Shown: positions 2,197 through 15,706 of the stretch, in pieces
How the letters are laid out: each line of letters starts with the position of its first letter
How positions within the stretch are numbered: position 1 is the first letter of the stretch
From: a bacterium
Lineage (GTDB): Bacteria; SZUA-79; Acidulodesulfobacterales; Acidulodesulfobacteraceae
NCBI GenBank assembly: GCA_021845685.1
Contig: JAJZVN010000013.1
Span: forward strand, 1-51,802
Length of the DNA stretch: 51,802 nt
Direction: 5' to 3'
Made by a program: the position numbers and the translations under genes
Notes under the pieces: model-generated
What the model saw: only the letters and a program-made list of their open reading frames with translations
Told to the model about the DNA's origin: nothing
Databases searched by the model: none

Positions 2197-2252
2197 TTTT
2201 GAATGGCTGGGGGAGAAGGATTCGAACCTCCGTAATGGGAGTCAGAGTCCCA
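2197..2252 (-). other. attL: 56-bp direct repeat, tRNA-Gln 3' fragment
   Basis: Identical base for base to 15626-15681. Positions 2204-2252 are the 3' two-thirds of tRNA-Gln on the minus strand (anticodon loop, T arm, acceptor 3' strand, CCA), cut off in the anticodon 5' stem. The 25 bp further left (2172-2196) match 15601-15625 with four mismatches. This is the expected product of tyrosine-recombinase integration into a tRNA gene, where the element restores the tRNA at one end and leaves a fragment at the other. Confidence 0.93.
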
Positions 2253-2308
2253 ATAATAAGCTTGTAAGTGTTTGATGTTACTTTGTTATTTTAACGATAT
2301 AAAATTAG

Positions 2309-2330
2309 TATAGCAAATATATAGCAAATA
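2309..2330. repeat. Paired TATAGCAAATA repeats at left island end
   Basis: Two perfect back-to-back copies of TATAGCAAATA (2309-2319, 2320-2330), 57 bp inside attL. The right end holds the related pair TATAGCAATA (15521-15530) and TATAGCAAAA (15532-15541). Paired short repeats just inside both ends are what arm-type integrase/excisionase binding sites look like; that role is inferred. Confidence 0.55.
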
Positions 2331-2389
2331 TCCTCCAATAATCTTTTATTGCTTAGCCTTATAATTTTCAAACTCGTGCATAGCTAAAC

Positions 2390-3055
2390 CTATTGTAAAA
2401 ACTGAAGACCTTCGCTAAATTTTTCATGGTCTATATCCTGGTTAGTTTCCAGCAATACTTTTATAAAATCGTTTGCGGCAAAAGAAGTGAGGAATTCATT
2501 TACATAATGAACGATTTTTACCGCGTTTGAAAAATTTGCCGCAACATGGTGCTTTTCATATAATTTTCTTAAAACATCTTCTTGTTCTTCCGTCATCTTA
2601 ATTTTATTTTCCAAATCGGCATTAATTTCAACGTTATGCCTTTTTAATATTTTCCTCATTCCCGATATATCCAGCCCTGCGCCCGACTCGTCCCAATCAA
2701 GTGCGGAAATTATAGTTTTCTTGACCCCGGCGTTAAGCAGATATATTACGTCCTCCGTAAGATTAATATCCTCATGCCTAACCCTGCGATTTTCGAATAT
2801 TTTATTAGGATTTAATCCTGTGCGTTGCGCAAATTGCATCACTCTGGCAAGTCCGAAAGACTCCGAAAAATTACAGAAATATTCCATTAAATCCGGGGCA
2901 AACGGGTCATCATAAGACTCGGGTTTTTTAGGAGCTTCAACGCCTTCCAGTATCCTGTTAAGCCTTGCTTTTGATATTCCGTAATGCTCGATTATTTGGG
3001 ATTTTTTTAATCCCGCCCTGTAACAAATCCTTAAATCTTCTTCGTTAGCCAGCAT
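2390..3055 (-). CDS. Predicted HTH DNA-binding protein of the island
   Basis: 221 aa, no family recognised. The N terminus (residues about 5-36) reads as a helix-turn-helix: LRICYRAGLKKSQIIEHYG then ISKARLNRILEG, the pattern of a resolvase/Hin-like or Cro-like recognition unit. The remainder is mostly charged helices. It is transcribed leftward, divergent from the AlpA-like gene at 3175, with 119 bp between the two starts. That arrangement suggests the element's regulator controlling a divergent promoter, as repressor/AlpA pairs do in satellites. The start is supported by GAGG seven bases upstream of the ATG. Confidence 0.5.
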   Translation of the reverse strand: MLANEEDLRICYRAGLKKSQIIEHYGISKARLNRILEGVEAPKKPESYDDPFAPDLMEYFCNFSESFGLARVMQFAQRTGLNPNKIFENRRVRHEDINLTEDVIYLLNAGVKKTIISALDWDESGAGLDISGMRKILKRHNVEINADLENKIKMTEEQEDVLRKLYEKHHVAANFSNAVKIVHYVNEFLTSFAANDFIKVLLETNQDIDHEKFSEGLQFLQ

Positions 3056-3174
3056 ATATATGCCTCATTAAAATTATATAAACATAAATAATATTATATC
3101 AAAAATTTTAAAAAAAATTAAAAAGGTATCGAATGTCCTCTTTTTTCTACAGGGGGATATCGTAAAATATTTTT

Positions 3175-3384
3175 ATGATGAAAGAAAAAGGAGCCGAAAA
3201 ACAAATTGCCGGATTATTAACAATGCGGGAAGCCGCAAGGTATCTCGGCATATGTTACAGGACAATGCAACGTCTTATATATGAGAGAAAAATTGGATTT
3301 GTAAAGATGTATTCGGAATATAGGTTCAGAACAGAAGATTTAGATAAATTTATCGAAAAAAATTACATCAAACCGGTGAAATGA
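3175..3384 (+). CDS. AlpA/excisionase-like HTH protein
   Basis: 69 aa, a winged-helix excisionase-type (MerR-like HTH_17) protein. The core LTMREAARYLGICYRTMQRL followed by the wing YSEYRFRTEDLDKFIEKNY matches proteins that bind operators or att DNA and direct excision or early transcription of integrated elements. It opens the rightward replication operon and overlaps the next gene by ATGA. The start could be Met1 or Met2. No good ribosome-binding site is seen; GGGGG at 3152-3156 is too far upstream. Confidence 0.75.
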   Translation: MMKEKGAEKQIAGLLTMREAARYLGICYRTMQRLIYERKIGFVKMYSEYRFRTEDLDKFIEKNYIKPVK

Positions 3385-4292
3385 CCATGAGTAATATAGA
3401 AATAAAAACATTAAGAGAATTAGACCTTAAAGCCGTTATGGATATCTTAGGATATGAACCGGATAGGAAATCATCCGATACCCGAAGAACTGTTTATGAA
3501 ACGCCGTTAGGGAAAATTTCAATAATGGGCCTAAAATTCTTTAATTTTTCTAATAATTTCGGCAACGGCGGAGCAATCGACTTGGTAATGCATTTAAAAG
3601 GATTGTCCTTTTCGGAGGCAATAAATTTCTTAAAAAATATCTACTATTCGGAACCAGCCTACTCGGAAAAGAATAATATACCCTTATCCCTTGAGCATAA
3701 AGATAATCTTGAATTACCTGCCCCTGACTACGCAAAAAAAGACATATTAATAGAATACCTGCACGGAAAAAGAAAAATACCGTTAAAGCTAATTGATTTA
3801 ATGATTCACAAGAAAGCCGTTTATCCGAATAAATACGGCTCGGTGGTATTTCTTCATTGTTCTTTTCTGCCGCCCTACAAAATTACCGGCGCCACGATTA
3901 GAGGAACCCATAATAACTTTAAACAAACCATCGGTAATAAAAATAAAGGCTTATTCTGGTTCGGAAAAAACATTAAAGAGGCGGCACAGATTATTTTGGC
4001 AGAATCGCCTATCGACCTTATTTCTTATTACTGCTTAAAAAGTGCTTCCCCTGAGATTTGTTATATAAGCCTCTCAGGGATTTCTTTTCCGAGCAGCCTA
4101 TCTGATTTTTTGAAGAATAAAAATATCATATTGGCCACGGATAATATAGCCTATGAAAAAAGCGAAGCCGCAAGAGAAGCAAATCTTAACATAGAAAAGG
4201 AACTTAAAAGAACCGGCGGGATTGTTATAAGAGAAATTCCGCAATATAAGGACTGGAACGAAGACTTAATCCATAAAGGGACGAATAAATAA
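3381..4292 (+). CDS. Primase-like protein (degenerate CHC2 + TOPRIM)
   Basis: 303 aa. The first 90 residues resemble the DnaG zinc-finger domain without its cysteines: FNFSNNFGNGGAIDLVMHLK then LSFSEAINFLKNI is the hallmark helix that follows the CHC2 core. The second half contains a TOPRIM-like fold with IILAESPIDLISYYCLK (acidic Glu), a glycine turn around SLSGISF, and the Asp motif IILATDN. TOPRIM primases of satellites and plasmids start replication of the element. It is translationally coupled to both neighbours: ATGA overlap upstream, TAATG overlap downstream. Missing zinc ligands are common in mobile-element versions. The start may instead be the Met at 3387. Confidence 0.65.
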   Translation: MTMSNIEIKTLRELDLKAVMDILGYEPDRKSSDTRRTVYETPLGKISIMGLKFFNFSNNFGNGGAIDLVMHLKGLSFSEAINFLKNIYYSEPAYSEKNNIPLSLEHKDNLELPAPDYAKKDILIEYLHGKRKIPLKLIDLMIHKKAVYPNKYGSVVFLHCSFLPPYKITGATIRGTHNNFKQTIGNKNKGLFWFGKNIKEAAQIILAESPIDLISYYCLKSASPEICYISLSGISFPSSLSDFLKNKNIILATDNIAYEKSEAAREANLNIEKELKRTGGIVIREIPQYKDWNEDLIHKGTNK

Positions 4293-5684
4293 TGGAAAAA
4301 CATACAGAAGTGGGGATTGAAGACGATTTTAAGATAAAAAGTGCTGACCATTTGCTGACCGATTTGTCAGTGCCTAAAACCCAAACTGCGCTGAGGATTA
4401 ATGGTAATTCTGTTGACGCTGACAGGGGGCTTGCAACGGCGAAAAAAAAAGGGCAGAAAAGGCGGCAACCGCAGGAATTTACTTGATTTAATTCTTGACG
4501 GAACTATGTCAAAAACCGCAAAAAACGACATAAAAGGACTAATTTTTTTAAAAAATGACGTGAATTTTCGTCTCTTTTATGTAATTCCCGTAGCTTCTTT
4601 TTTCATTGAAGATTCGGTCAACGCATTTAAAAAATATACTGATATCCCGCTTGAAATACCGTTTAGCATTGGAATGCACTTCTTGGCGGCATATTTGCTT
4701 GACATGAATGTAAAAGTAAATTTTGAAGGACAAACCGTTAGGCCAGACATATGGTCTATCGTTTTAGCCGATAGCGGCGGCGGCAAGTCCTATGCTGAAA
4801 GCCGCTACGCTTCCGTCATAGAGATAAAAAATAAATTGTCCGCCGGAATACAATTGTCGGCAAAATTCATCGAAGAACTTGCGAAGACACCGCATACGTC
4901 ATGGACAAGGGACGAAGTAGCTCAGTTTATAAAAGCGATAAAGACACAAACATACCTTTTTGAACTCAAAGACTATTTATTAATCGTGGCGACAAACGGA
5001 ACTATCAGTCGGACTACCAAAAAGGATGGCGATATTGTAGTAGAAGACCCCGCCATAGCTTTCTTGGGGCTTAACGTTTTCGAAACATTCGTAAAGACTA
5101 TCGATGCGGAAGATTTAACGGACGGCTTCGCCCAGCGGTTTAATTATATTATCGTAAAACCTGACTCCGCCAGGCCGCCTTTATCTGTCCCTCGGTATAA
5201 AACGTCAGAAATTGAGAAGACGATAAAATCCGCATGGAAAAAAATGCCGAAACCAAGAAAAGACAAAACCTATAAACTATCTCCGGAAGCCATTAAAGAA
5301 TTTGATAAGTCTTTTTCTCTTTTTGCCGCAAACGAAGAAATAAAAAACAACATACCTGCAAGTTTCTCGCGTAGGACACTATTTAAGGCGGTAAAATATG
5401 CAATGATTTATCACTGCATATTGGGCAAGGCGGCAAAGACGTATCTTGACGCAGAGGACATTTCCTATGCGATGCGGTTTATATCGGTAAATTTTTCGGA
5501 TATTAAGGCATTACTGGAACATTACGGGCTTTCAGATTTGGAAAAAACAGTCCGGGATGTGGAAAGATTAAAAAACGAATACAAAGCGGCAGGAAAAATT
5601 TTGAAAACTCGTGATGTTATTTCAAATATTCGGGCGATTAGAAATGTTGCTGAGGCAAAAGCGATTCTTGAAATATCAAATTAA
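4292..5684 (+). pseudogene. DUF3987-like replicative ATPase, frameshifted at A9
   Basis: Two overlapping frames make one protein of about 463 aa if joined at the nine-A run 4442-4450: 4292-4486 supplies the start (TAATG-coupled to the primase gene), and the +1 frame continues to 5684. The downstream part has a P-loop-like segment VLADSGGGKSYAES, an acidic segment SWTRDEVAQFI and the long C-terminal helical region of DUF3987/YfjI-type ATPases found beside primases in integrative elements. Read alone, the downstream frame lacks a credible start with a ribosome-binding site. The cause may be mutation (loss of helicase function), a homopolymer error in the read, or slippage on A9 yielding some full-length product; the sequence alone cannot decide. 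Confidence 0.6.
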
Positions 5685-5726
5685 ACCTATTCAACATAAT
5701 TTGTTATTAAAAACGGAGGAATTATC

Positions 5727-6146
5727 ATGGAAATTAAACCGAAAAGCAATATTATGTTATATCTTACAAGCGAAACCGATAATTTTTTTCATTTATCGCC
5801 ATGGGATGTATTCGATCCGGAATTCGGAAGCGATGGCTATCATTACCTTTTACCGAAAAGCAAAGCCCATTTTAAATTTATATCCCAAGACCAAGAACTA
5901 ATCGTTTTTGTCGAAAAGATTGATGAAACCAAAAAGGAAGTCTATCTCTCGCAAACTCATTGGCTCTATATGAAAAACCTGATTAAATCCGAATTAGAGT
6001 TGGATGTAAAAATAATAAAAAGGTATCCGGGGAAACTAACCGTTGCGGAACTCGTTAACCCGAACCAGAGAGTTAATAAGACATTATTAAAGCTGTTGGC
6101 ATTAGCGGTTGGAGAGAAAATATATATAAGATTGTTGAAGAATTAA
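5727..6146 (+). CDS. Small island protein of unknown function
   Basis: 139 aa, not recognised. A strong ribosome-binding site (GGAGG, eight bases before the ATG) sets the start. The N-terminal half is beta-rich with aromatic residues (FHLSPWDVF, GYHYLLPKS); the C-terminal half is charged, with KLTVAELVNPNQRVNKTLLK. No membrane segment or signal peptide. It follows the ATPase by 42 bp on the same strand and ends the rightward replication operon. It could be an accessory replication or regulatory factor, but nothing in the sequence proves this. Confidence 0.55.
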   Translation: MEIKPKSNIMLYLTSETDNFFHLSPWDVFDPEFGSDGYHYLLPKSKAHFKFISQDQELIVFVEKIDETKKEVYLSQTHWLYMKNLIKSELELDVKIIKRYPGKLTVAELVNPNQRVNKTLLKLLALAVGEKIYIRLLKN

Positions 6147-6246
6147 TTGCCCATGTAAACAATCTAAAATTACTTTTTCATACAATGCTGATGAATTTAT
6201 AATACTGCAATATTATGAAACTATCTAATTCCATGTTTATTAATAG

Positions 6247-7776
6247 CTAACTAAATTGGGGAAATGGATTTATTTCTTTCATAGAAACAATTGGGTCAAT
6301 TTCTTCCATAATTTTTTTACAGAAAATTTTATTAGCGTCCATGGCATTAATTACAGGATGCGTAGACCTAATAAAATTATTACTCCATATCTGAACATCT
6401 TTACTACTTGAGGATATACTATTTCCTATAATTTGACAGAGGGGTTCTTCAAACATTATATTTTGTAAGATGGGATATTTTATAATTATTCTTTGAAGCC
6501 AAATATCCATATATCCGGTATTAGGTATTTGAGAAAATTTTTTTTTGATTCTATTAATAATACTTTTCTTTTTTGGACTTGGAATAAAATAAATAAGTTT
6601 GCTTAAGATTGCCGATACAACAGGGTATGTTCTGGGATTTCTATATGCTATTTCAACAACAATACTTATCATTGGTTCAATATCGGCAATATTTTTCTTA
6701 TCTTTTATTCTTATGTAAAAGTCTATTAAAGAGCGGAACAAACTTCCTGAGTTTGAAAACTTCATAGCATGCGAATAAATAATAAGTAAATGTTTTTGTA
6801 AATTTTTTTCACTATTTTTTTTATTAATCCATGCTAATTTATCCGGTTTTAACGAATCCTCTATAATAGAATCACTTATTTTCGTTTTATTACCATTAAG
6901 TTTAAGCCCAAGATCAATTAGAACTTCTGTTAAACATTTTAGAATTTTATCGGCATCAACTGCGCTATTTACAAATATGCGATAATCATCGCGATATCGT
7001 AATATATAATATTTGCTAATTTTAATGGTTTTAATTTTTTTAGTTAATTCTGAATCTGCATAACCTAAAACCATCTCGGCTATAAAATCCATTAAAACTG
7101 ACCCTTGTGGAATGCCATTAGTTTGCCCATGTTTCATTTCTTGTATGCTTTTATCAATAATATTCCCGATAAGTTTATTATTGTGCCGCTCACCTTTAGC
7201 CTTATCTTTTCCATGTATTGCCCATGCAATTGAATGCGTATAAATAGACCCATAACAATCGGTAATATCTGAATGAATAATATATTTATAATCAAGTGAA
7301 AGCTTTAATGACTCTTGTTCGATTTCATCCCGCCATATGCCTATTTGAACTGCTTTATCCTTTTTATGTGTCAATGAAGCAACTGGATAGCTTATGCATT
7401 TAATCTTACGATTGTTCTGAAATTCTTTAAATCTATCGCAGATTAATTTCCAATGTTTATCTTGTGTCAATTTAATAATCATGTCAACATAAAGGACAGG
7501 ATGGATAAGCTCAAATGGCCTCCATGAATATTTTCCGTCTTTATTGTTAAATATTATATGATTAACATTATTATAGTACTTATATTTATCTTTACCTTTA
7601 GCATGACTATCAACATAATCCGAATTTTTTTCTAAAATATTATAAATATCGTTTAACATATTCTTAAAATTAATATAAGGTGGTAAATCCATATTGCAAT
7701 AACCCTCGTTTTTAAGAAAGAATTCTTTTGCTTCTATAGAGGATAATTCACAAATTGTTTTATATCGCTTTTGCAT
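6247..7776 (-). CDS. Reverse transcriptase of defence (UG/DRT-like) type
   Basis: 509 aa. RT core motifs appear in order: SDITDCYGSIY (about residue 169, first catalytic Asp), NGIPQGSVLMDFIAEMVL (about 220), and the active site RYRDDYRIF (about 260-268, YxDD form). An N-terminal region of about 130 residues and a helical C-terminal extension of about 200 residues flank the core. There is no maturase, endonuclease, integrase or nitrilase motif, which argues against a group II intron or retrotransposon. YRDD with 'YRIF' and this architecture resemble the unknown-group/DRT anti-phage RTs. The exact class cannot be assigned by eye. It is the only long gene reading leftward inside the island, and its 5' side faces a 1.2-kb hairpin-rich region, where DRT and retron systems keep their non-coding RNA. 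Confidence 0.8.
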   Translation of the reverse strand: MQKRYKTICELSSIEAKEFFLKNEGYCNMDLPPYINFKNMLNDIYNILEKNSDYVDSHAKGKDKYKYYNNVNHIIFNNKDGKYSWRPFELIHPVLYVDMIIKLTQDKHWKLICDRFKEFQNNRKIKCISYPVASLTHKKDKAVQIGIWRDEIEQESLKLSLDYKYIIHSDITDCYGSIYTHSIAWAIHGKDKAKGERHNNKLIGNIIDKSIQEMKHGQTNGIPQGSVLMDFIAEMVLGYADSELTKKIKTIKISKYYILRYRDDYRIFVNSAVDADKILKCLTEVLIDLGLKLNGNKTKISDSIIEDSLKPDKLAWINKKNSEKNLQKHLLIIYSHAMKFSNSGSLFRSLIDFYIRIKDKKNIADIEPMISIVVEIAYRNPRTYPVVSAILSKLIYFIPSPKKKSIINRIKKKFSQIPNTGYMDIWLQRIIIKYPILQNIMFEEPLCQIIGNSISSSSKDVQIWSNNFIRSTHPVINAMDANKIFCKKIMEEIDPIVSMKEINPFPQFS

Positions 7777-7928
7777 AAAAGTAAATATATTAAAAGATTA
7801 ATATTTATGGTTTTTTACTTAATTTATTTTAACATCTAACTTTGTCAATTAAAAGACTGAATAGGCAAAATATTTTTTATGCTATTTTGCATATAAAACT
7901 TTTTCGCCGCCGCAAAAAAGTTTCCCAA

Positions 7929-8036
7929 GGGAATTTGATAAAGCCGCCTGATTATACCAAAAAGACTTAACCATTATACTTTCATTCTGATATTACTATC
8001 CCTTTATCTAAATTAATCCGGCTTTGTCAAATTCCC
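7929..8036. repeat. 18-bp inverted repeat enclosing ~70 nt
   Basis: GGGAATTTGATAAAGCCG (7929-7946) pairs with CGGCTTTGTCAAATTCCC (8019-8036), with a single T/G mismatch that remains a G-U pair in one RNA strand. The enclosed 72 nt are AT-rich. A long closing stem around an open loop about 150 nt before the RT start codon is the shape expected for an RNA template or msr/msd-like element. Confidence 0.7.
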
Positions 8037-8040
8037 GGTC

Positions 8041-8122
8041 AGGCGTTTTAGCAGAATTAACCCGCAAGGGCTTGACACTCGGAGTTTACAATGGGTGTTT
8101 AATTCTGCGTTAAAAAACGCCT
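8041..8122. repeat. Two-part 19-bp inverted repeat
   Basis: AGGCGTTTT (8041-8049) pairs with AAAACGCCT (8114-8122), and GCAGAATTAA (8051-8060) with TTAATTCTGC (8099-8108), separated by small bulges. The apical 38 nt can form a further CCC/GGG mini-stem. It directly abuts the preceding inverted repeat, giving two large consecutive stem-loops. Confidence 0.7.
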
Positions 8123-8180
8123 GTGGAAAACTTTAATAACAAAAAACCGTTTCCTGCCGTAGTGAGCGCCGGAGCAGGCG

Positions 8181-8204
8181 TTGGATTTTCGGTAGAAAAT
8201 CCAA
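8181..8204. repeat. 10-bp perfect hairpin with GGTA loop
   Basis: TTGGATTTTC GGTA GAAAATCCAA. It is flanked by CGTTTCCT (upstream) and AGGAAAGAAACG (downstream), which can pair as an outer stem, so it may be the tip of a larger structure spanning about 8147-8240. Confidence 0.6.
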
Positions 8205-8247
8205 GCATCTGCGTAGCAAGCGAACAAAGGAAAGAAACGACAAGAAT

Positions 8248-8292
8248 GCCCCATTCTTCAGTTTGTGGTTTTTACAAACTGAAGAATGGGGC
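8248..8292. repeat. 19-bp perfect hairpin with 7-nt loop
   Basis: GCCCCATTCTTCAGTTTGT (8248-8266) is perfectly complementary to 8274-8292 across the loop GGTTTTT. No T-run follows on either strand, so it is not a classical terminator. It is the longest perfect stem in the region and is comparable with the msd stem of retrons or the stem of a structured ncRNA. Confidence 0.75.
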
Positions 8293-9012
8293 AGAAAGGC
8301 TTATGTAATATGACTGCCCATGAGTGATTACTATTTTTAAATTTGATTTTTTTTAAAAATATGGTAATATAAAAATATTAGTCAATTCATTTATGATTCT
8401 GCGCTTTCATTGGCGGTGCTTTAAAGGGAATCATATATCTTCGCAAGAGATTAAAACTTACCTATTTTCGAAAGAAAATCAAAAACTTTCCAATCCGAAG
8501 CGGACGGATTATTAAATTCGCAAATATTTGCGCTACCGGTTTGTAAGGCCCTGTTGTTCTATGGTGATTTTTAAATTTATCTTTTGATAAGCGATGAAAA
8601 TACCGGTTGAACCAGTGATTTTATAATGGAATATTAAACATTCCTGCCGGAAAAGAAAAACATTTCCTTTTTCGTGCCGCCGATACAGTAAATACCTTTC
8701 TAAAGGAAGCCGAAATCTTCCATAGTTATCCTTAAATAACTATAAAAAAACAAGAAAAGACTTGCCGGGTCTATAAATTCGGAAAATAACTTTATAAAAA
8801 CATATAAGGATTATTGGCTTTATCCCTTTAGTTTAATCTTCAGTGAGCTGGGATTGTCTACCCGGTAGAAAGCCACCAAAAAAAAGACAATTCGACCTTA
8901 AAGCCGGAATCGTATGGTTCCAAAAACATATAATATGCAAAATAGGCAGACGCAAAAATGCCGCCGCCGGAATTTTGTTTAAAATTAACATTATTTATTG
9001 GAGGAAATAACA

Positions 9013-9885
9013 ATGACCAAAATAGAATATAAAATAAACCAGGAATTAAAGCAGATAAAGCATTTCCACAAAATGGATTCTCCGTTGTCCGTAGTTTCCA
9101 ACAAAAGCGACCACGATATTAGACAGGATATGCGCCGTATTGCCGCTGACGCCAGAAATTTCGGGATCGGCGTTACCGCAAATCAAAAAGGCGACATCGA
9201 AAAATGGACTAACGAGGATATTGTTAAAATGGTGGAATGCTATAAAACCCAAGGACTAAAGGACCCAACGATTATTAATTACGTTTCTTCTCTAAGGTCA
9301 TTTTTACATGAAACCGGAAGAACGAACATTGATATATCCAATGGTGAGCTTGGGCTTAAAAGGGTTACAGAATACAAAGATAAAAGCCTTAAAGCCAAGG
9401 GTGTGGACATCAATGAGAAACTTGCGTATTTCAAAGAAAAAGATGCCAATGTTTACGTTCAGCTAAAAATTGCGGCCATAGCCGGCCTTAGAAAAGAAGA
9501 AAGCGTCCATGCCGGACTTGCTTTATCTAAAGGTTATGACATCGTAAAAAATGGCATGCTCGAGTTAAAAGGTTCATGGTGCAAGAACGGCAGACCCAGA
9601 GAAATAAAACTTTCTTCCGAAAAGATTACGGAACTTGCGGAACTTAAGAAATATGCAATGAATAATAATTATAATATTAGCAGGACATTAAAGCAGGAAA
9701 AAGACCACCTGGGCAATTCTATAAAGAACGCAGGATTTAACATGCACGCCGTAAGACATTCAGTTGCGCAGGAAAGATATGCGGAACTGGTTTCAAACGG
9801 TGATTCCAAAAAAGAAGCCAAAACGGCAGTTTCCAATGAGCTTGGGCATAACAGAGATTACGTGACGAAAGTTTATCTTGGATAG
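9013..9885 (+). CDS. Second tyrosine recombinase (Integrase_1-like)
   Basis: 290 aa from the ATG at 9013, which has GGAGG eight bases upstream; a TTG five codons earlier is less likely. Catalytic residues are visible: Arg in AGLRKEES (about 160), the basic NGRPREIKL hairpin, HAVRHS (His 245, Arg 248), and LGHNRDYVTKVYL (His 279, nucleophile Tyr 288). An N-terminal SAM-like helical domain precedes. It resembles Integrase_1 proteins found in ICEs and islands rather than the tRNA integrase at 14461. No att site adjoins it. Possible roles are inversion, dimer resolution, or a relic of another element. It stands between the hairpin-rich region and the R-M genes. Confidence 0.8.
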   Translation: MTKIEYKINQELKQIKHFHKMDSPLSVVSNKSDHDIRQDMRRIAADARNFGIGVTANQKGDIEKWTNEDIVKMVECYKTQGLKDPTIINYVSSLRSFLHETGRTNIDISNGELGLKRVTEYKDKSLKAKGVDINEKLAYFKEKDANVYVQLKIAAIAGLRKEESVHAGLALSKGYDIVKNGMLELKGSWCKNGRPREIKLSSEKITELAELKKYAMNNNYNISRTLKQEKDHLGNSIKNAGFNMHAVRHSVAQERYAELVSNGDSKKEAKTAVSNELGHNRDYVTKVYLG

Positions 9886-9961
9886 GAATAGTTGTTAATT
9901 TAATTTTAATTTAGTTGACAAGTATGCTTACACTTATCTGCCATAAGGGTCAACTTTAGCA

Positions 9962-9989
9962 TTGACAATAATAACCGATGTATTATATG
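9962..9989 (+). promoter_or_regulatory. Candidate promoter for the type IIS R-M operon
   Basis: TTGACA (9962-9967), 16-base spacer, TATATG (9984-9989). A second TTGACA at 9915-9920, with GTCAAC at 9949-9954, gives an imperfect inverted repeat that could be an operator. R-M operons often have such control, but no C-protein gene is seen. Confidence 0.4.
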
Positions 9990-10052
9990 ATAAAATTAAT
10001 TAAATTTCAATATCAAGGATTGATTAATTTATTACATATTGGGACTTATAAT

Positions 10053-10244
10053 ATGCTTAAGTTTAAAAAACCTCCTTTGGCTAAAGTAATAGTAGCCATA
10101 CAATGGGCCTATATCCCACATTCTTTTCATCGGGTCAACAAAACATTTGGTAAATTAATTTCAGCTTTTACTAATAAGGCTACAAAGGAAGATTTATGTC
10201 AATTCGAAAGCATACCAATACTTTTTGTTCTTAGGGGTTTATAA
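10053..10244 (+). pseudogene. Fragment resembling the N terminus of TIGR04255-family proteins
   Basis: Starting at the ATG, the frame reads MLKFKKPPLAKVIVAIQW, like the 'K.K.PP.VEAV...F' beginning of TIGR04255 proteins, which are sporadic proteins often near defence genes. The full family is about 250 aa; here only about 64 codons remain and the frame ends one base before the methyltransferase start. Probably a remnant displaced by the R-M genes. The resemblance is from memory and short. Confidence 0.3.
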
Positions 10245-10245
10245 G

Positions 10246-12771
10246 ATGAAAACTAAAAAAAGATTGACATATATAAGTTTATTCAGCAGTGCTGGGATAG
10301 GTTGTTACGGTTTTAAAATGGTAAATTACGATTGCGTTGCTACTGTTGAAATTCTTGAAAAGCGTTTAAAAATACAACGCTATAATCATAAATGCAAATA
10401 TGATTCGGCATATATAAGCGATGACATTACAACTGATGAATCTAAAGTTAAAATTAAGTCCGAATTAAATCGCTGGAATATTAAAAAAAACGACCTTGAT
10501 GTGCTAATAGCAACTCCACCTTGCCAAGGGATATCGGTAGCAAATCATAAAAAGGGGAACGAATTACGCAGAAATTCCTTGATTACCGAATCTATTTCAT
10601 TAATAAAAGAAATAAGTCCAAAATTTTTTATTTTTGAAAATGTACGCGGTTTTCTAACGGCGCTATGTACCGATTTTGACAGTAAAGATAAAAAAATAAA
10701 AGAAGTCATAGAAATAAATCTTGCAGGGCATTATCATATTAATTACCAAGTTATAAATTTTAAGGACTACGGTTGTCTTTCAAGTAGGACTAGAACTCTG
10801 ATTGTAGGCACCAGAAAAGATTTGAAAGAAATTACACCTTTAAATATTTTTCCGGAACTTTCCAAAGAAAAATCATTAAGAGAAACAATCGGACATTTGC
10901 CATCGCTAAATAAAATTGGGGAGATTTCAGAATCAGATATTTTTCACGGCTTTAAAAAATATGCCGCTGAAATGCGCGAATGGATTAAAGATATTAAAGA
11001 GGGCGAATCGGCATTTGACAATAAAGATTATAAAAAAATCCCTCATAAAATCGTTAACGGTTTAATATCCTGTAATGTTAATAAAAACGGCGACAAATAC
11101 AAGCGGCAGTGCTGGGATAAGGTTGCCCCTTGTGTTCATACAAGAAATGACATTTTATCCAGCCAGAATACCGTTCACCCAACAGACGACAGGGTGTTTA
11201 GCATACGCGAACTAATGTTAATGATGTCTATTCCGGATTCATTTAACTGGACAGACAAAACAATTAAAGAATTAAATGCTCTATCCGTTGAAGAAAAAGA
11301 AAAGTTCTTGGCAAAAGAAGAGATGAATATTCGCAATTGCATTGGGGAAGCTGTTCCTACAATTATATTTCAGCAATTGGCAAATAAAATAAAAAATTAC
11401 TTGTTAAATGACAAATTCGACGAAAAAGCAATAAAAAAAATAATTAAGCAGCATAGACTTGAAAGTATAGATAATCTAAAAAATTATATTAAGGAAAACA
11501 CTGATAAGCAAAGTTATTCTGTTCTTTCTAAAATTGCAGAGCTATCAAATACTGCAAGAACAGAAACCGCGGCATACTATACTAGACAAGATATTTGCTT
11601 TTCTATTATAAAAGACTTACCTGAAGCAAAAGATTTTAAAGTTTTAAGAATTCTTGAGCCATCGGTCGGCGTTGGCAATTTTATACCTTTATTAATTGAA
11701 AAATATAAAACTATTAATGAAGTTATAATTGATGTTGTTGATATAGATAAAAATTCAATTGAAGTTTTCAAGCTATTATTAAAAATATTGAAAATCCCAA
11801 AAAACATTACAATTAATTTCATTAATGCCGATTTCCTTGCATATGATTTTAAATTTAAATACGATATTATTATTGGAAATCCTCCTTTTAAAAAAATAAC
11901 TCACGATAAACTTTTATTGGCTGCTTATAAGAAAAAAGCCTATAATACCGACTCCAATAATTTATTTTCTTTCTTTATCGAGAAGTCGTTATGTCTTGGA
12001 AACGTGGTTTCATTAATAGTTCCTAAAAGCCTTATTAATGCGCCTGAATTTAACAAAACAAGAGAGCTGTTAGAGAACATAATGGTTAAAAAAATTACTG
12101 ATTATGGGGAAAGCGGATTTAAAGGCGTTAAGATTGAGACAATAAGCTTCATAGCGTTTACACAAAAGAAACCAAAAAATAATAAGGTAGAAATTGAGTC
12201 TTACATTACTGATAATATAAGAATGCAATCGCAAGAATATATTTTTTCAAAAGAGTTTCCATATTGGTTAATTTATCGAGATAGTTTTTTCGATTCAATT
12301 GCCAAAAAGATGAATTTCGGCATATTTAATGCCTACCGCGACAGACAAATTACGAAAAAAATAACTAATGGTTCAGGTCGAATAAGAGTTTTAAAGTCAA
12401 GAAACATAAGTTCAATTAAAACGATCGATATTAAAAACTATGACTCATATATTAATAAAATTGAAAATCTAAGTGTAGGAAAATTTCTAAATAATACTTC
12501 TGCGGTATTGGTTCCAAATCTTACATACTTACCAAGAGCATGTTTTTTACCCGAGAATGCCGTAACCGATGGGTCAGTCGCAATTCTTACGCTTAAAGAT
12601 GATGCTATTTCTCTTGATAAGAGAGATTTAGAATATTTCGGGACAAAAGAATATAAGGAATTTTATAGAATAGCAAGGAATTTTGGGACACGTTCCTTGA
12701 ATATCGACAACAATTCAGTTTTCTTTTTCGGAGTTTTAAAAAATGCAGGCGATAAAAGATTATCTTGCTAA
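10246..12771 (+). CDS. Fused m5C + m6A DNA methyltransferase (type IIS, Alw26I/Eco31I/Esp3I-like)
   Basis: 841 aa, two enzymes in one chain. The N-terminal half is a cytosine-5 methyltransferase: LFSSAGIG (SAM site, about residue 10), TPPCQG (catalytic Cys, about 91), FENVRGF (about 130), SSRTRTLIVG (about 180), a target-recognition region, RVFSIRELM..SIPDSF (about 315) and NCIGEAVP (about 363). The C-terminal half is an adenine-N6 methyltransferase: YYTRQDI, LEPSVGVGNF (about 470) and GNPPFKK (about 543). Enzymes protecting an asymmetric site need one methylase per strand, and m5C plus m6A is known for Alw26I/Eco31I/Esp3I. The start ATG has AGGGG eight bases upstream; a TTG seven codons earlier is less likely. 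It overlaps the endonuclease gene by 29 bases. Confidence 0.85.
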   Translation: MKTKKRLTYISLFSSAGIGCYGFKMVNYDCVATVEILEKRLKIQRYNHKCKYDSAYISDDITTDESKVKIKSELNRWNIKKNDLDVLIATPPCQGISVANHKKGNELRRNSLITESISLIKEISPKFFIFENVRGFLTALCTDFDSKDKKIKEVIEINLAGHYHINYQVINFKDYGCLSSRTRTLIVGTRKDLKEITPLNIFPELSKEKSLRETIGHLPSLNKIGEISESDIFHGFKKYAAEMREWIKDIKEGESAFDNKDYKKIPHKIVNGLISCNVNKNGDKYKRQCWDKVAPCVHTRNDILSSQNTVHPTDDRVFSIRELMLMMSIPDSFNWTDKTIKELNALSVEEKEKFLAKEEMNIRNCIGEAVPTIIFQQLANKIKNYLLNDKFDEKAIKKIIKQHRLESIDNLKNYIKENTDKQSYSVLSKIAELSNTARTETAAYYTRQDICFSIIKDLPEAKDFKVLRILEPSVGVGNFIPLLIEKYKTINEVIIDVVDIDKNSIEVFKLLLKILKIPKNITINFINADFLAYDFKFKYDIIIGNPPFKKITHDKLLLAAYKKKAYNTDSNNLFSFFIEKSLCLGNVVSLIVPKSLINAPEFNKTRELLENIMVKKITDYGESGFKGVKIETISFIAFTQKKPKNNKVEIESYITDNIRMQSQEYIFSKEFPYWLIYRDSFFDSIAKKMNFGIFNAYRDRQITKKITNGSGRIRVLKSRNISSIKTIDIKNYDSYINKIENLSVGKFLNNTSAVLVPNLTYLPRACFLPENAVTDGSVAILTLKDDAISLDKRDLEYFGTKEYKEFYRIARNFGTRSLNIDNNSVFFFGVLKNAGDKRLSC

Positions 12772-13945
12772 TTTTAATTTAGATATAAGAGAATCCGGCG
12801 ATGCTAGATTTATGGACCAAAAATGCACGCCCGATGTTATTTCTATAATAGCCGACTGCGTAATAAATTTTGTCGGAAATAATCACGATAAAACTTTTAC
12901 AGTAAACGATATTTGGAATTCCCAATATTTTATTAAAACTGTAAGTAATATTTTTAAGAAGCCGGAAGCTAATAATCCGACAGTAGAACATGAATACGAT
13001 AAATTTATTGCACAACCATTAAGGACACTAGCATATTCCCATGTCCTTAATATTGAGAAATCCGGGGTTACAAATTTATATTCCATTGCCGAATATGATA
13101 TTTTAGAGTATATATCTTTAAAAGATAGGAATGCTTATTTGTTCCTATGTGAATATCTGGAAAAAGTTTTAATTGATAGCGGTATTTACAGTAGTTTTGA
13201 AAACTATAAGAATCTTTATTTAGGGCATAAATTAGATACAGCCGCTTTTAATACTCTTAAAGAGAAATTCCAAAGATTTATTATAGGTAATACCAAAATA
13301 AATGGTTATGTAGAAGTTAATAGGATATTTCCTAAGATTCTAAATATTTATGCTGTCCAAAATAATCTGCCGGGAACTATCAAAGGGTTCCTTTCCAAAT
13401 TTGAATTTTCTTATTCTGATTTAATGTATAATCGAAAAAACTGGAGAGATGTTAAGAAAGATAAAAAAATCTCCAGACAAGAGGCAGAAGCCGAATATAA
13501 TTTATTAAATTTAGAGTCAAAAAACTACTATGATGATTATTTAATTCAAAAAGCAATGAACCAAATAAGAAAAATGTATACAGAAAGTGAAGTAAGAGAC
13601 CAATGGTCCATCGGAGAAGCAACCCAAATACATCATATATTTCCAAAACAGAAATTTCCACAAATAGCCCATTATTTAGAAAATTTAATAAAACTTAACG
13701 CAACACAGCATTATACTAAGGCTCACCCGAGTAATAAAACAAATAGTATAAACATTGACTACCAACTTGTTTGCCTACTTGCAAAATCCGATAGCATAGA
13801 AAGATCTTTACAGATAAACCAACCTTATTACCGGAAAGAATCTTTTATATATTGTATAAATACAGGATTATCGGCAGAATTAAAATACGATCTTACTTTT
13901 AAGCAAATAAAAGCAGAATTGGCAACCATTTACAATAATCTTTAA
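12743..13945 (+). CDS. HNH restriction endonuclease, type IIS-like
   Basis: 400 aa. The C-terminal part holds an HNH nuclease motif: TQIHHIFPKQKFPQI (about residues 294-308), then LENLIKLNATQHYTKAHP with the central Asn and final His. The N-terminal 280 residues should carry DNA recognition. Eco31I is known to cut with a single HNH site, and together with the upstream m5C/m6A fusion this makes an Alw26I/Eco31I/Esp3I-type system the best reading. It overlaps the methyltransferase gene, so translation is coupled and methylase is made first. The recognition sequence cannot be read from the protein. A generic HNH protein is the alternative. Confidence 0.75.
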   Translation: MQAIKDYLANFNLDIRESGDARFMDQKCTPDVISIIADCVINFVGNNHDKTFTVNDIWNSQYFIKTVSNIFKKPEANNPTVEHEYDKFIAQPLRTLAYSHVLNIEKSGVTNLYSIAEYDILEYISLKDRNAYLFLCEYLEKVLIDSGIYSSFENYKNLYLGHKLDTAAFNTLKEKFQRFIIGNTKINGYVEVNRIFPKILNIYAVQNNLPGTIKGFLSKFEFSYSDLMYNRKNWRDVKKDKKISRQEAEAEYNLLNLESKNYYDDYLIQKAMNQIRKMYTESEVRDQWSIGEATQIHHIFPKQKFPQIAHYLENLIKLNATQHYTKAHPSNKTNSINIDYQLVCLLAKSDSIERSLQINQPYYRKESFIYCINTGLSAELKYDLTFKQIKAELATIYNNL

Positions 13946-13974
13946 GAAATATAATAGGGGGGGTAATTATTATC

Positions 13975-14355
13975 ATGGTGAATCTTTTATTCGGGAAAAA
14001 GAGGCAAATCGCATTTAATACAAATAACGAGTTTTATGAATCACTCGGATTTTTATCAAAAAACAACGATACGACCTCATTGCATTGGGAACATAATGAA
14101 ACAAGCGGCGCATGGGGAAGCGAAGGCAGAATCCATTTCTATATAGAAGACAGATTTTATCCTTTGTACTTTAGTAGGTCATTCACAGCTGGTACGGGAA
14201 ATATTATTCATAGAGTAAATTGTAATGAATATGTAGAATATATTTCAACGCATCATTATTTTCAAATGGGCCATATCCAGAATACACAAAATATTTTAAC
14301 GACAATTCCAAGTAGGTATTTGACCGATTTTAATAGAGGATTATTTGTGCTGTAA
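13975..14355 (+). CDS. Unknown small protein trailing the R-M operon
   Basis: 126 aa, not recognised. Rich in aromatic residues and His with beta-type patterning (TSLHWEHNETSGAWGSEGR, FYIEDRFYPLYFSRSF); no Cys, signal peptide or membrane segment. It follows the endonuclease by 29 bases on the same strand. The G7 stretch upstream is 14 bases from the ATG, further than usual, so the exact start is uncertain. It may be an accessory of the R-M system or separate cargo. Confidence 0.5.
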   Translation: MVNLLFGKKRQIAFNTNNEFYESLGFLSKNNDTTSLHWEHNETSGAWGSEGRIHFYIEDRFYPLYFSRSFTAGTGNIIHRVNCNEYVEYISTHHYFQMGHIQNTQNILTTIPSRYLTDFNRGLFVL

Positions 14356-14414
14356 CAGGTACTGTCAATAATTTTGAACATTACCAAATTAATAATATTC
14401 TAAGGAGAATTATT

Positions 14415-14453
14415 ATGGGCACTAAAGAACAAAAAGAAAAGCTGACATTCTAA
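14415..14453 (+). pseudogene. 12-codon stub with strong ribosome-binding site
   Basis: AAGGAG stands eight bases before an ATG that opens MGTKEQKEKLTF and stops, seven bases before the end of the convergent integrase gene. It looks like the surviving start of a gene removed when the element's right end was assembled, or a very small peptide gene. Confidence 0.25.
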
Positions 14454-14460
14454 ATAACAA

Positions 14461-15495
14461 TTATTTATCCCTCCACACATCATTAACAGCTTTCCGTAGC
14501 GTATCCGGCACCAAATGGCTATAACGCTTGGTCATTTGCGTCGTACGGTGTCCAAGGAGTTCCCCAGTGATATACAGGCTCGTTCCGCCCATAACCATTT
14601 TGCTCGCAAAGACGTGCCGCAAATCGTGTATCCGCAAATCCTTAAGTCCGGCATTCCGGCAGGCCGTTTTGAATGAATGTTTAAAATCGACGATTTTTTT
14701 ACTGGAATTGTTAAACACATACAAACAGTCGCCCTCTCTCCCAACTCCGCTTAAAAGGTCTTTTAAAGGGCTGGAAACCGGTATGTAGCGGTCGCGCTTT
14801 GTCTTCGTCGCCTTTATGGCGATAACACAGTTCTGTAAGTCCACATCATCCCATTTTAAGTTAAGGGCTTCGCCTTTCCGGCATCCGGTGTAAATTAAAA
14901 AAGTAATTATGTCGCGGGTAAATTTATTTGCGGCGCCGTCGATGAGTTTTTGTATGTCTTCGTCGGACAGGGTTTTGAGGCGGGAAAGTTCGTTTAATTT
15001 TTTAACTCCAGCACAGGGGTTTTTGTCGGTATATTTTTTCTCGACGCAGTAATTAAAAAAATTGCGCATTATGGCAATCTCGTAATTAACAGAGCTGAAA
15101 TTTATTTCTGATTCCTTTTTGCCCTTATTTTTAGCCAGGCCCATAATTTCGCGCATTCTTTCGAGCTGATAATTTTTAATATCCGGCGTTGCTATATTAT
15201 TTAACGCTTTGTTTCCGAATACGGGTAGGAAATGATTTGCGGCGGTTCTTTTTCTTACGTCGGGATTAACCTGCGTCTTTAAATATTCCTGCCAAAGTAT
15301 AGTAAAATTTGCTATACTTTTCTTCAGAATCGGAATCCTGTGTCCCTCTCTTGCCATATCGGTCTGCTTAGCTTCCGCGATAAGTTTGGCCGATTGCTTG
15401 TCCGAGGTTTTAGTACTGCCCTGATAGTGCTTTCCCTGGTAGGTTATGCTATAATACCAGTTTTTAGAGTTTTTAGGTCTGTAAATGCTTGCCAT
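14461..15495 (-). CDS. Tyrosine integrase of the tRNA-Gln island
   Basis: 344 aa from the ATG at 15495, which has GAGGGG upstream; a TTG eleven codons earlier is a weaker start. The N terminus carries an arm-binding beta domain (SIYRPKNSKNWYYSITYQGK), followed by a core-binding domain (to about 165) and the catalytic domain with Arg 206 (TGCRKGEAL), a Lys in TKTKRDRYIPV, HDLRH (His 290, Arg 293), LGHR (His 316) and nucleophile Tyr 325 (MTKRYSHL). It reads away from tRNA-Gln, with its start 138 bp from the tRNA 3' end, the usual position for an element that integrates in that tRNA. It should catalyse exchange between the 56-bp repeats. Confidence 0.92.
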   Translation of the reverse strand: MASIYRPKNSKNWYYSITYQGKHYQGSTKTSDKQSAKLIAEAKQTDMAREGHRIPILKKSIANFTILWQEYLKTQVNPDVRKRTAANHFLPVFGNKALNNIATPDIKNYQLERMREIMGLAKNKGKKESEINFSSVNYEIAIMRNFFNYCVEKKYTDKNPCAGVKKLNELSRLKTLSDEDIQKLIDGAANKFTRDIITFLIYTGCRKGEALNLKWDDVDLQNCVIAIKATKTKRDRYIPVSSPLKDLLSGVGREGDCLYVFNNSSKKIVDFKHSFKTACRNAGLKDLRIHDLRHVFASKMVMGGTSLYITGELLGHRTTQMTKRYSHLVPDTLRKAVNDVWRDK

Positions 15496-15520
15496 TGCCG
15501 ATTTACCCCTCTTTAAAAAG

Positions 15521-15541
15521 TATAGCAATAGTATAGCAAAA
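15521..15541. repeat. Paired TATAGCAA repeats at right island end
   Basis: TATAGCAATA (15521-15530) and TATAGCAAAA (15532-15541), just upstream of the integrase start, match the left-end pair at 2309-2330. Probably arm-type binding sites for the integrase, which may also autoregulate its own promoter there. Inference from position and sequence. Confidence 0.5.
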
Positions 15542-15625
15542 TAATGTCATACCTATTCATTTTTATACATTTTTTTGCATAGGCTTGTCAAGAGGAAAAT
15601 GCCGGAACAGCTTGTTTACTGCGGT

Positions 15626-15681
15626 TTTTGAATGGCTGGGGGAGAAGGATTCGAACCTCCGTAATGGGAGTCAGAGTCCCA
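15626..15681 (-). other. attR: 56-bp direct repeat inside tRNA-Gln
   Basis: Perfect copy of 2197-2252. It covers the tRNA 3' part up to the anticodon 5' stem plus seven bases of downstream DNA. The first difference (base 15682) lies in the anticodon stem, placing the likely crossover in the anticodon-loop to T-arm region. Confidence 0.92.
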
Positions 15682-15706
15682 GGTCCTGCCGCTAGACGAT
15701 CCCCCA
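15633..15706 (-). tRNA. tRNA-Gln (anticodon CTG)
   Basis: 74 nt with encoded CCA. Acceptor TGGGGGA pairs with TCCCCCA, discriminator G; the D arm contains GTCTAGCGGCAGGAC; the anticodon stem TGGGA/TCCCA encloses the loop CTCTGAC, giving anticodon CTG; the T loop is TTCGAAT. The first pair T-A and discriminator G are typical of glutamine tRNAs. It is the intact integration target of the island; the 3' part is supplied by the element. Confidence 0.95.

Follow-up and report, generated by a model that had tools for sequence, protein, structure and literature searches.

A tRNA-Gln island of the Acidulodesulfobacteraceae with a putative SGI1-like, possibly RNA-assisted relaxase module

Contig JAJZVN010000013.1 (assembly GCA_021845685.1), from an uncultured bacterium of the family Acidulodesulfobacteraceae, contains a 13.4-kb island that is inserted in a tRNA-Gln gene and is very likely mobile. 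The stretch that we analyzed, here called the window, is the whole contig (G000:C7; 51,802 nucleotides). The island is probably an integrative mobilizable element that carries a relaxase module like that of SGI1, possibly assisted by an RNA. This putative module consists of a hairpin region, a conserved structured noncoding stretch and the gene of a second tyrosine recombinase, Yrec2, in that order. Of the features expected for an integrative mobilizable element, an integration module of its own with att sites was seen, and for the mobilization module (oriT and relaxase) there are matches of homology and layout only.

The island is bounded by an exact 56-nt repeat pair (2197–2252 and 15626–15681), which is nested in a repeat of 81 nt with 95% identity (2172–2252 and 15601–15681, with starts 13,429 nt apart). 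ARAGORN detected a single tRNA in the window, tRNA-Gln (CTG) at 15633–15706 on the minus strand, which also matches the Rfam tRNA family; this is the target gene, and the second att copy lies inside it. Because there is just one tRNA gene in the window, the left att copy consists of a 3' fragment of tRNA-Gln and 7 further nt, and a tandem tRNA duplication as the source of the repeats is ruled out. The intact tRNA gene is adjoined by a tyrosine integrase gene (14461–15528, minus strand; Pfam Phage_integrase 8e-27, with PHROGs in agreement). We compared the tRNA-Gln site in eleven relatives (G002, G003, G004, G005, G006, G009, G010, G011, G012, G018 and G026). In G002, a species of the same genus and the nearest relative compared at this locus, the tRNA is intact and the site is empty: the joined flanks match the tRNA-Gln region unbroken over 503 nt at 95.8% identity, and a second comparison gave 403 nt at 96.0%. 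An integrase of the same family adjoins tRNA-Gln in six of the eleven (G005, G006, G009, G012, G018 and G026), and G003 has an integrase remnant of 20 residues. Among eight related islands tested on the available stretch, a second att copy was found in three, namely L038 (59 nt at 95%, tRNA-Gln), L039 (74 nt at 93%, tRNA-Gln) and L027 (58 nt at 98%, tRNA-Phe). A first-pass annotation of this DNA had proposed a 13.4-kb tRNA-Gln island with exact 56-bp att repeats, which the repeat coordinates, the tRNA prediction and the adjoining integrase confirm; the empty site in a sister genome for which it suggested looking was found, and the duplication that it named as another origin of the repeats was not.

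The surroundings of the insertion site hold some further traces. A degenerate third copy of the sequence downstream of tRNA-Gln and of att is present at 522–566 (80% over 45 nt). The 1.6 kb up to 2172 contain a radical SAM/SPASM gene and a 92-aa open reading frame (ORF), and may be the remnant of an older island; the radical SAM/SPASM protein (929–1945) and the neighboring small protein (596–874) are possibly a peptide-modification pair, the best NCBIfam match being below the cut-off. The integrase family of the island has 42 matches, many of them partial, in the 3.0-Mb genome G000. At L037 (G012:C12), an integrase that is 93% identical to that of the window lies at the same tRNA beside two large unrelated ORFs.

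The comparison with SGI1 rests on the order of its transfer functions. As described in excerpts of two papers (PMC9299015, PMC6414798), SGI1 contains oriT, an essential small RNA (sgm-sRNA) and mpsA in this order, and the relaxase MpsA is of the tyrosine recombinase type and has residues R162, H247, R250 and H251; according to the excerpt of the former (PMC9299015), SGI1 requires a small RNA to move, whose mode of action is unknown. In the window, a hairpin region, a noncoding stretch and a tyrosine recombinase gene follow each other in the same order, likewise in an element that is integrated and has replication genes of its own, and the spacing between arginine and histidine is 85 in both Yrec2 (R160, H245) and MpsA as described in those excerpts. 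In contrast to SGI1, the island is located in tRNA-Gln instead of trmE, and carries an S1-KH protein and defense cargo. Its target is none of the three genes (trmE, dusA and yicC) that an excerpt of PMC8409611 gives for the SGI1 family. Pfam, PHROGs and NCBIfam scans of the island proteins named no mpsB, traG, traN or sgaC product, SGI1 proteins not having been used as queries. The parallel is one of layout and does not amount to a test of membership in the SGI1 family.

The noncoding region spans about 8240–8906, and comprises a hairpin with 20-bp arms and a fold with compensatory changes. The hairpin, an oriT-like candidate, is a perfect inverted repeat of 20 bp with a 7-nt loop (8247–8293); the conserved structured stretch occupies 8395–8906. 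DNA similarity to window positions 8240–8997 was detected in 20 of 61 genomes (E up to 0.001), with many of the matches short. Where Yrec2 is near-complete (at least 72% identity), the match adjoins it in 13 of 14 loci, and at the remaining one, G010:C13, the contig starts about 200 bases ahead of the Yrec2 gene. The fold was derived from an alignment of ten sequences (A3), from which six partial sequences of the 16-sequence alignment A2 (L110, L112a, L112b, L113, L114 and L116) had been excluded; L110, L112b and L113 match parts of the region only. Thirteen of its 92 pairs changed on both sides, versus 6.1 +/- 1.6 in shuffles, none of 500 shuffles reaching thirteen, and sliding the fold gave 1 to 5. 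The fold energy was -62.2, versus -19.7 +/- 4.0 for 20 column shuffles, and the single-sequence fold had z values of -2.56 (sense) and -2.05 (antisense). Two other identities of the region were rejected. It is not a known RNA: no Rfam family reached its gathering score, and at E up to 5 there were just below-threshold matches, mostly to the hairpin. Nor is it coding, as the longest stop-free stretches have 48–86 codons and their frame and strand vary among nine loci.

The region upstream of the recombinase has counterparts on plasmids. A strict hairpin, defined as perfect arms of at least 13 within 850 nt upstream of the recombinase gene, was present in 10 of 11 Acinetobacter, 5 of 5 Rhizobiaceae, 1 of 1 Vibrio and 1 of 1 Psychrobacter sequences and in 6 of 11 loci of the window family, compared to 4 of 300 control stretches; three more window-family loci have a hairpin with a longer loop. 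Among the Acinetobacter sequences, the inner hairpin arms do not vary and changes in the outer stem are compensated, and the islands look alike by eye; much of the covariation in the Acinetobacter alignment A9 sits in the hairpin. For the five Rhizobiaceae sequences (A8), the fold energy beats the shuffles and the compensated pairs equal the shuffle maximum (11 vs 11); therefore, we claim no covariation for this fold. The motif AA[AC]ACT[TA]ACC is located upstream of the recombinase in 17 of 21 members on plasmids and in 6 of 12 close members on islands (23 of 36 loci overall; background 0.034 per 1.5 kb). When the window was scanned with a matrix built from plasmids only (103,574 positions), the best site was found on the plus strand at 8447–8462 (17.5 bits, the next one having 14.0), where the motif common to the plasmid modules reads GAGATTAAAACTTACC. 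At L115, the motif stretch AAAGATTAAAAACTTACC is present twice, 29 nt apart.

Yrec2 is encoded at 9013–9885 on the plus strand, with an ATG that was chosen by eye from the upstream GGAGGA. The catalytic residues R160, K191, H245, R248, H279 and Y288 are invariant in 20 aligned proteins. Relatives were found on 163 plasmid records, with 24–32% identity among the 20 matches listed; the phage set contained no relative beyond one Salmonella record, and no relative of Yrec2, the DUF3987 protein or the reverse transcriptase was found in viral contigs. We compared 21 plasmid neighborhoods. Among these, on Vibrio, Acinetobacter and Psychrobacter plasmids, a short ORF and then a coupling-type gene of a type IV secretion system (T4SS) often come next after the recombinase gene, and on one of them the coupling-type gene alone is annotated downstream; on Rhizobiaceae plasmids, the recombinase gene lies near MobA/MobQ genes. 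The gene-free gap upstream of the recombinase gene is often about 1.1 kb, but on several Acinetobacter plasmids an ORF is annotated there. On Vibrio plasmid pSIO1 (L125), the Rfam family PAGEV RNA is present at 348–565, upstream of the recombinase module. These plasmid modules, whose recombinases are annotated as ‘phage integrase N-terminal domain’ (pSIO1, Acinetobacter, Rhizobiaceae), thus share with the island a homologous recombinase and a comparable hairpin and motif upstream, and differ from it in the short ORF and coupling-type gene downstream and in the position of the motif after the conserved noncoding stretch.

A recombinase of this kind might also serve the element itself, as a multimer resolvase or replication recombinase, in which case the hairpin region would be a recombination site or the origin of the excised circle and there would be no role in transfer. 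The catalytic residues are complete, the nearest structures in a fold search with the predicted Yrec2 structure were integrases, Cre and XerH, a replicating element needs resolution, and the hairpin and the fold fit single-stranded DNA as well. We nevertheless regard this explanation as unlikely: coupling-type or mobilization genes adjoin the recombinase in the plasmid relatives, and known resolution sites are much shorter than the conserved folded stretch.

Ahead of the noncoding region, at 5727–6146 on the plus strand, lies the gene of a 139-aa protein for which Pfam, PADLOC, PHROGs and NCBIfam gave no convincing match. Its structure model (pLDDT 89.7, from 8 sequences) shows an S1 fold followed by a KH fold. 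In a Foldseek search, NusA fills the first 17 rows (E 4.4e-9), and the VIA comparison with NusA gave Z 14.3 and an rmsd of 2.3 over 129 aligned residues. The predicted fold resembles the S1-KH1 part of NusA over 129 of 139 residues, whereas the protein stands alone, has 10–17% identity and lacks the N-terminal and KH2 parts. It is possibly an RNA-binding protein, as the model predicts, although function does not follow from a common fold. The protein is present in 14 of 61 genomes, and the noncoding region was also found on 11 of the 16 contigs with a clear match to it; on the other five (L178 to L182), which are short, near contig ends or remnants, AlpA adjoins its gene.

The fold of this protein suggests an explanation in terms of a leader RNA, in which the NusA-like S1-KH protein would bind the noncoding stretch so that the polymerase reads through Yrec2 and the cargo, by antitermination or attenuation. 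NusA, including that of antitermination complexes, is the best match of the fold and the noncoding region lies directly ahead of Yrec2, but in the promoter scan a site noted by eye ahead of the folded region did not pass and none passed at the right place, and the modules of L106 and L107 keep the region without an S1-KH protein. We consider a leader RNA possible though doubtful; it would be compatible elsewhere with a mobilizable element.

Several observations weigh against a relaxase module, and against its RNA component in particular. No MpsB-like ORF was found in 12 island stretches downstream of Yrec2, and no coupling protein was recognized on the island. MpsA was compared by description only. 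MobK and TcpM share with Yrec2 the tyrosine recombinase catalytic residues and a presumed oriT beside the gene; however, MobK, TcpM and MpsA are described in an excerpt of PMC8152469 as lacking a core-binding domain, whereas in the Yrec2 model helices at the N-terminus, predicted partly with low confidence, precede the catalytic domain. Because of these helices, Yrec2 may be an ordinary recombinase. L106 and L107 carry the module without AlpA and without the S1-KH gene. The strict hairpin was not found in 5 of 11 window-family loci, in 1 of 11 Acinetobacter sequences, on the Pseudolysobacter plasmid or in any distant relative tested (L117–L119, L145, L147, L148, L149 and L151, of which L145 and L147 repeat L119 and L118). 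The motif was not found in 13 of 36 loci (L038, L105, L109, L110, L112, L113, L117, L118, L119, L129, L133, L169 and L171), of which L109, L129, L169 and L171 have near matches, and it precedes the folded stretch in the islands, yet on the plasmids the conserved stretch comes first. Finally, the opposite strand folds about equally well (-57.3 vs -62.2, with 19 vs 13 compensated pairs). Therefore, the RNA is putative, folding does not tell which strand forms the folded molecule, and this molecule is possibly single-stranded DNA.

The first-pass annotation had likened the island to a phage satellite. P4-like and PICI satellites have in common with it an integrase, AlpA, a primase and variable defense genes; the island differs in having no recognized packaging, capsid-size or terminase gene and no known helper phage. 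As a satellite, it would be induced by a helper phage, replicated by its primase and ATPase and packed in phage particles, and its defense genes would hit competing phages. Its integrase, AlpA, primase/ATPase genes, small size, lack of capsid genes and defense cargo in exchange slots are like those of the P4-like satellites treated in an excerpt of PMC9122126. No capsid gene was recognized among the ten larger island proteins scanned (Pfam, PHROGs), as the annotation had noted, and no T4SS protein either. The PHROGs scan of ten island proteins also recognized no packaging, capsid-remodeling, terminase or hijack gene, though hijack genes may escape recognition, and no DUF3987 relative was found among phages or viral contigs. 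We searched 20 genomes of the same family for markers of helper phages and conjugation systems. TerL (PF03354) and HK97 capsid (PF05065) were each found in 0 of 20, a result that covers two phage families and applies to metagenome-assembled genomes, which can lose prophages. VirB4 (PF03135) was found in 10 of 20, with one borderline match (E 6.6e-4) in G000 itself, and the VirD4-type ATPase (PF02534) in all 20, but also in 5 of 14 control genomes, so that it may catch other ATPases. Since no packaging gene was recognized, both phage markers are absent from the 20 genomes and the core module next to Yrec2 resembles a conjugative mobilization module, the satellite label is unsupported, and we think it quite improbable. 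What stands of the earlier reading is the mobile element itself, a discrete tRNA-Gln island with att repeats, integrase and replication genes; the empty sister site and the related islands at tRNA genes support it.

Beyond the left att copy lies the gene of a 221-aa DNA-binding-like protein (2390–3055, minus strand), a repressor candidate with weak helix-turn-helix (HTH) matches; it is divergent from the gene of an AlpA/excisionase-like HTH_17 protein (3175–3384, plus strand; Pfam HTH_17 1.5e-13, PHROG excisionase/regulator), and its homologues adjoin AlpA in L108, L178, L179 and L038. Next on the plus strand are genes of a primase-like protein with DUF3991 and Toprim_2 (3381–4292; Pfam), with relatives on plasmids, and of a primase/helicase-type ATPase with DUF3987 (4401–5684; Pfam 3.3e-9, PHROG DNA primase 2.3e-12). 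Homologues of the latter are present in 10 of 61 genomes, among which G000 has two more matches and G016 has four. Cargo slot 1 contains an AbiP2-type antiviral reverse transcriptase (6247–7776, minus strand; PADLOC 2.6e-191), which matches over its whole length the family model and PDB 7r08 (6.8e-93), listed as ‘Reverse transcriptase’ and which we take to be AbiP2; it differs from AbiP2 in host lineage and island setting. Slot 2 contains, on the plus strand, a fused C5 and Eco57I-type DNA methyltransferase (10246–12771; ATG at 10246 chosen by eye, the listed ORF opening at TTG 10225) and a type II restriction enzyme (12743–13945; PADLOC REase_II 2.2e-103), a restriction-modification (R-M) system for which type IIS is plausible. 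These results bear out the AlpA, primase and ATPase genes, the reverse transcriptase and the R-M system of the first-pass annotation. A 126-aa ORF (13975–14355, plus strand), taken from the ORF list, had no convincing NCBIfam match.

The same core recurs in relatives of the same host family: the repressor-like HTH protein, AlpA, often the primase and ATPase, the 139-aa protein, the noncoding region and Yrec2. The full order, seen in the window and L027, is repressor-like HTH, AlpA, (primase, ATPase), 139-aa protein, slot 1, noncoding region, Yrec2, slot 2 and integrase; L028, L038, L105, L108, L110, L112, L113 and L115 have a partial version of it, and in L106 and L107 the noncoding region, Yrec2 and integrase come after host-like genes. 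Related islands sit in tRNA-Gln and in other tRNA genes. Their replication genes vary, L110 having a DnaG zinc-ribbon/DnaB-like protein and L113 one that begins alike (seen by its start only). A further island, L025 (G016:C2), has DUF3987, a RepB-type primase and an Integrase_1-type recombinase. Defense genes are interchangeable at two places in this family: AbiP2 and type II R-M in the window, EcoRV and HEPN in L027, HaeII, Vsr and a ThsB-type TIR protein in L105, type III R-M and SIR2 in L108, type I R-M in L038, and a restriction enzyme and TIR in L107. Could the island be decayed and immobile? The S1-KH gene of L038 is interrupted by two TAG and two TAA stops, and L106 and L107 look truncated, but the core ORFs of the window are all open, its att copies are exact and the site in the closest sister is empty, and we consider decay very unlikely.

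As an integrative mobilizable element, the island might work as follows. AlpA and the divergent HTH protein would switch excision, and the primase and ATPase would copy the excised circle. Yrec2 would act at the hairpin region as a tyrosine-recombinase-type relaxase, and the folded noncoding stretch may be transcribed as an RNA that takes part in transfer like the sgm-sRNA of SGI1 and to which the NusA-like S1-KH protein may bind. The secretion channel would be supplied by the conjugation apparatus of a helper element, and AbiP2 and the R-M system would repay the host by stopping phages. In a search of the open-access literature, we found no description of a module of this kind for either the islands or the plasmids, and no paper on the host group.

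A more far-reaching idea, which we put forward tentatively and think rather improbable, is a general transfer machine, an RNA-protein relaxosome built from a large folded RNA, a NusA-like S1-KH protein encoded by the island and a tyrosine recombinase; islands of this lineage and plasmids from several groups of proteobacteria would carry variants of it. If this were true, the sgm-sRNA of SGI1 would be one case of a broad principle. If the folded region and the upstream regions of the plasmids are of the same kind, they make up a set for comparison across distant bacteria, with a candidate partner that binds RNA and a conserved motif as a target for mutation; the folded region, the motif and the S1-KH protein are the parts most worth following up. 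For the lineage itself, the islands make visible a shuffling of defense systems, as the contents of the slots differ among the annotated islands.

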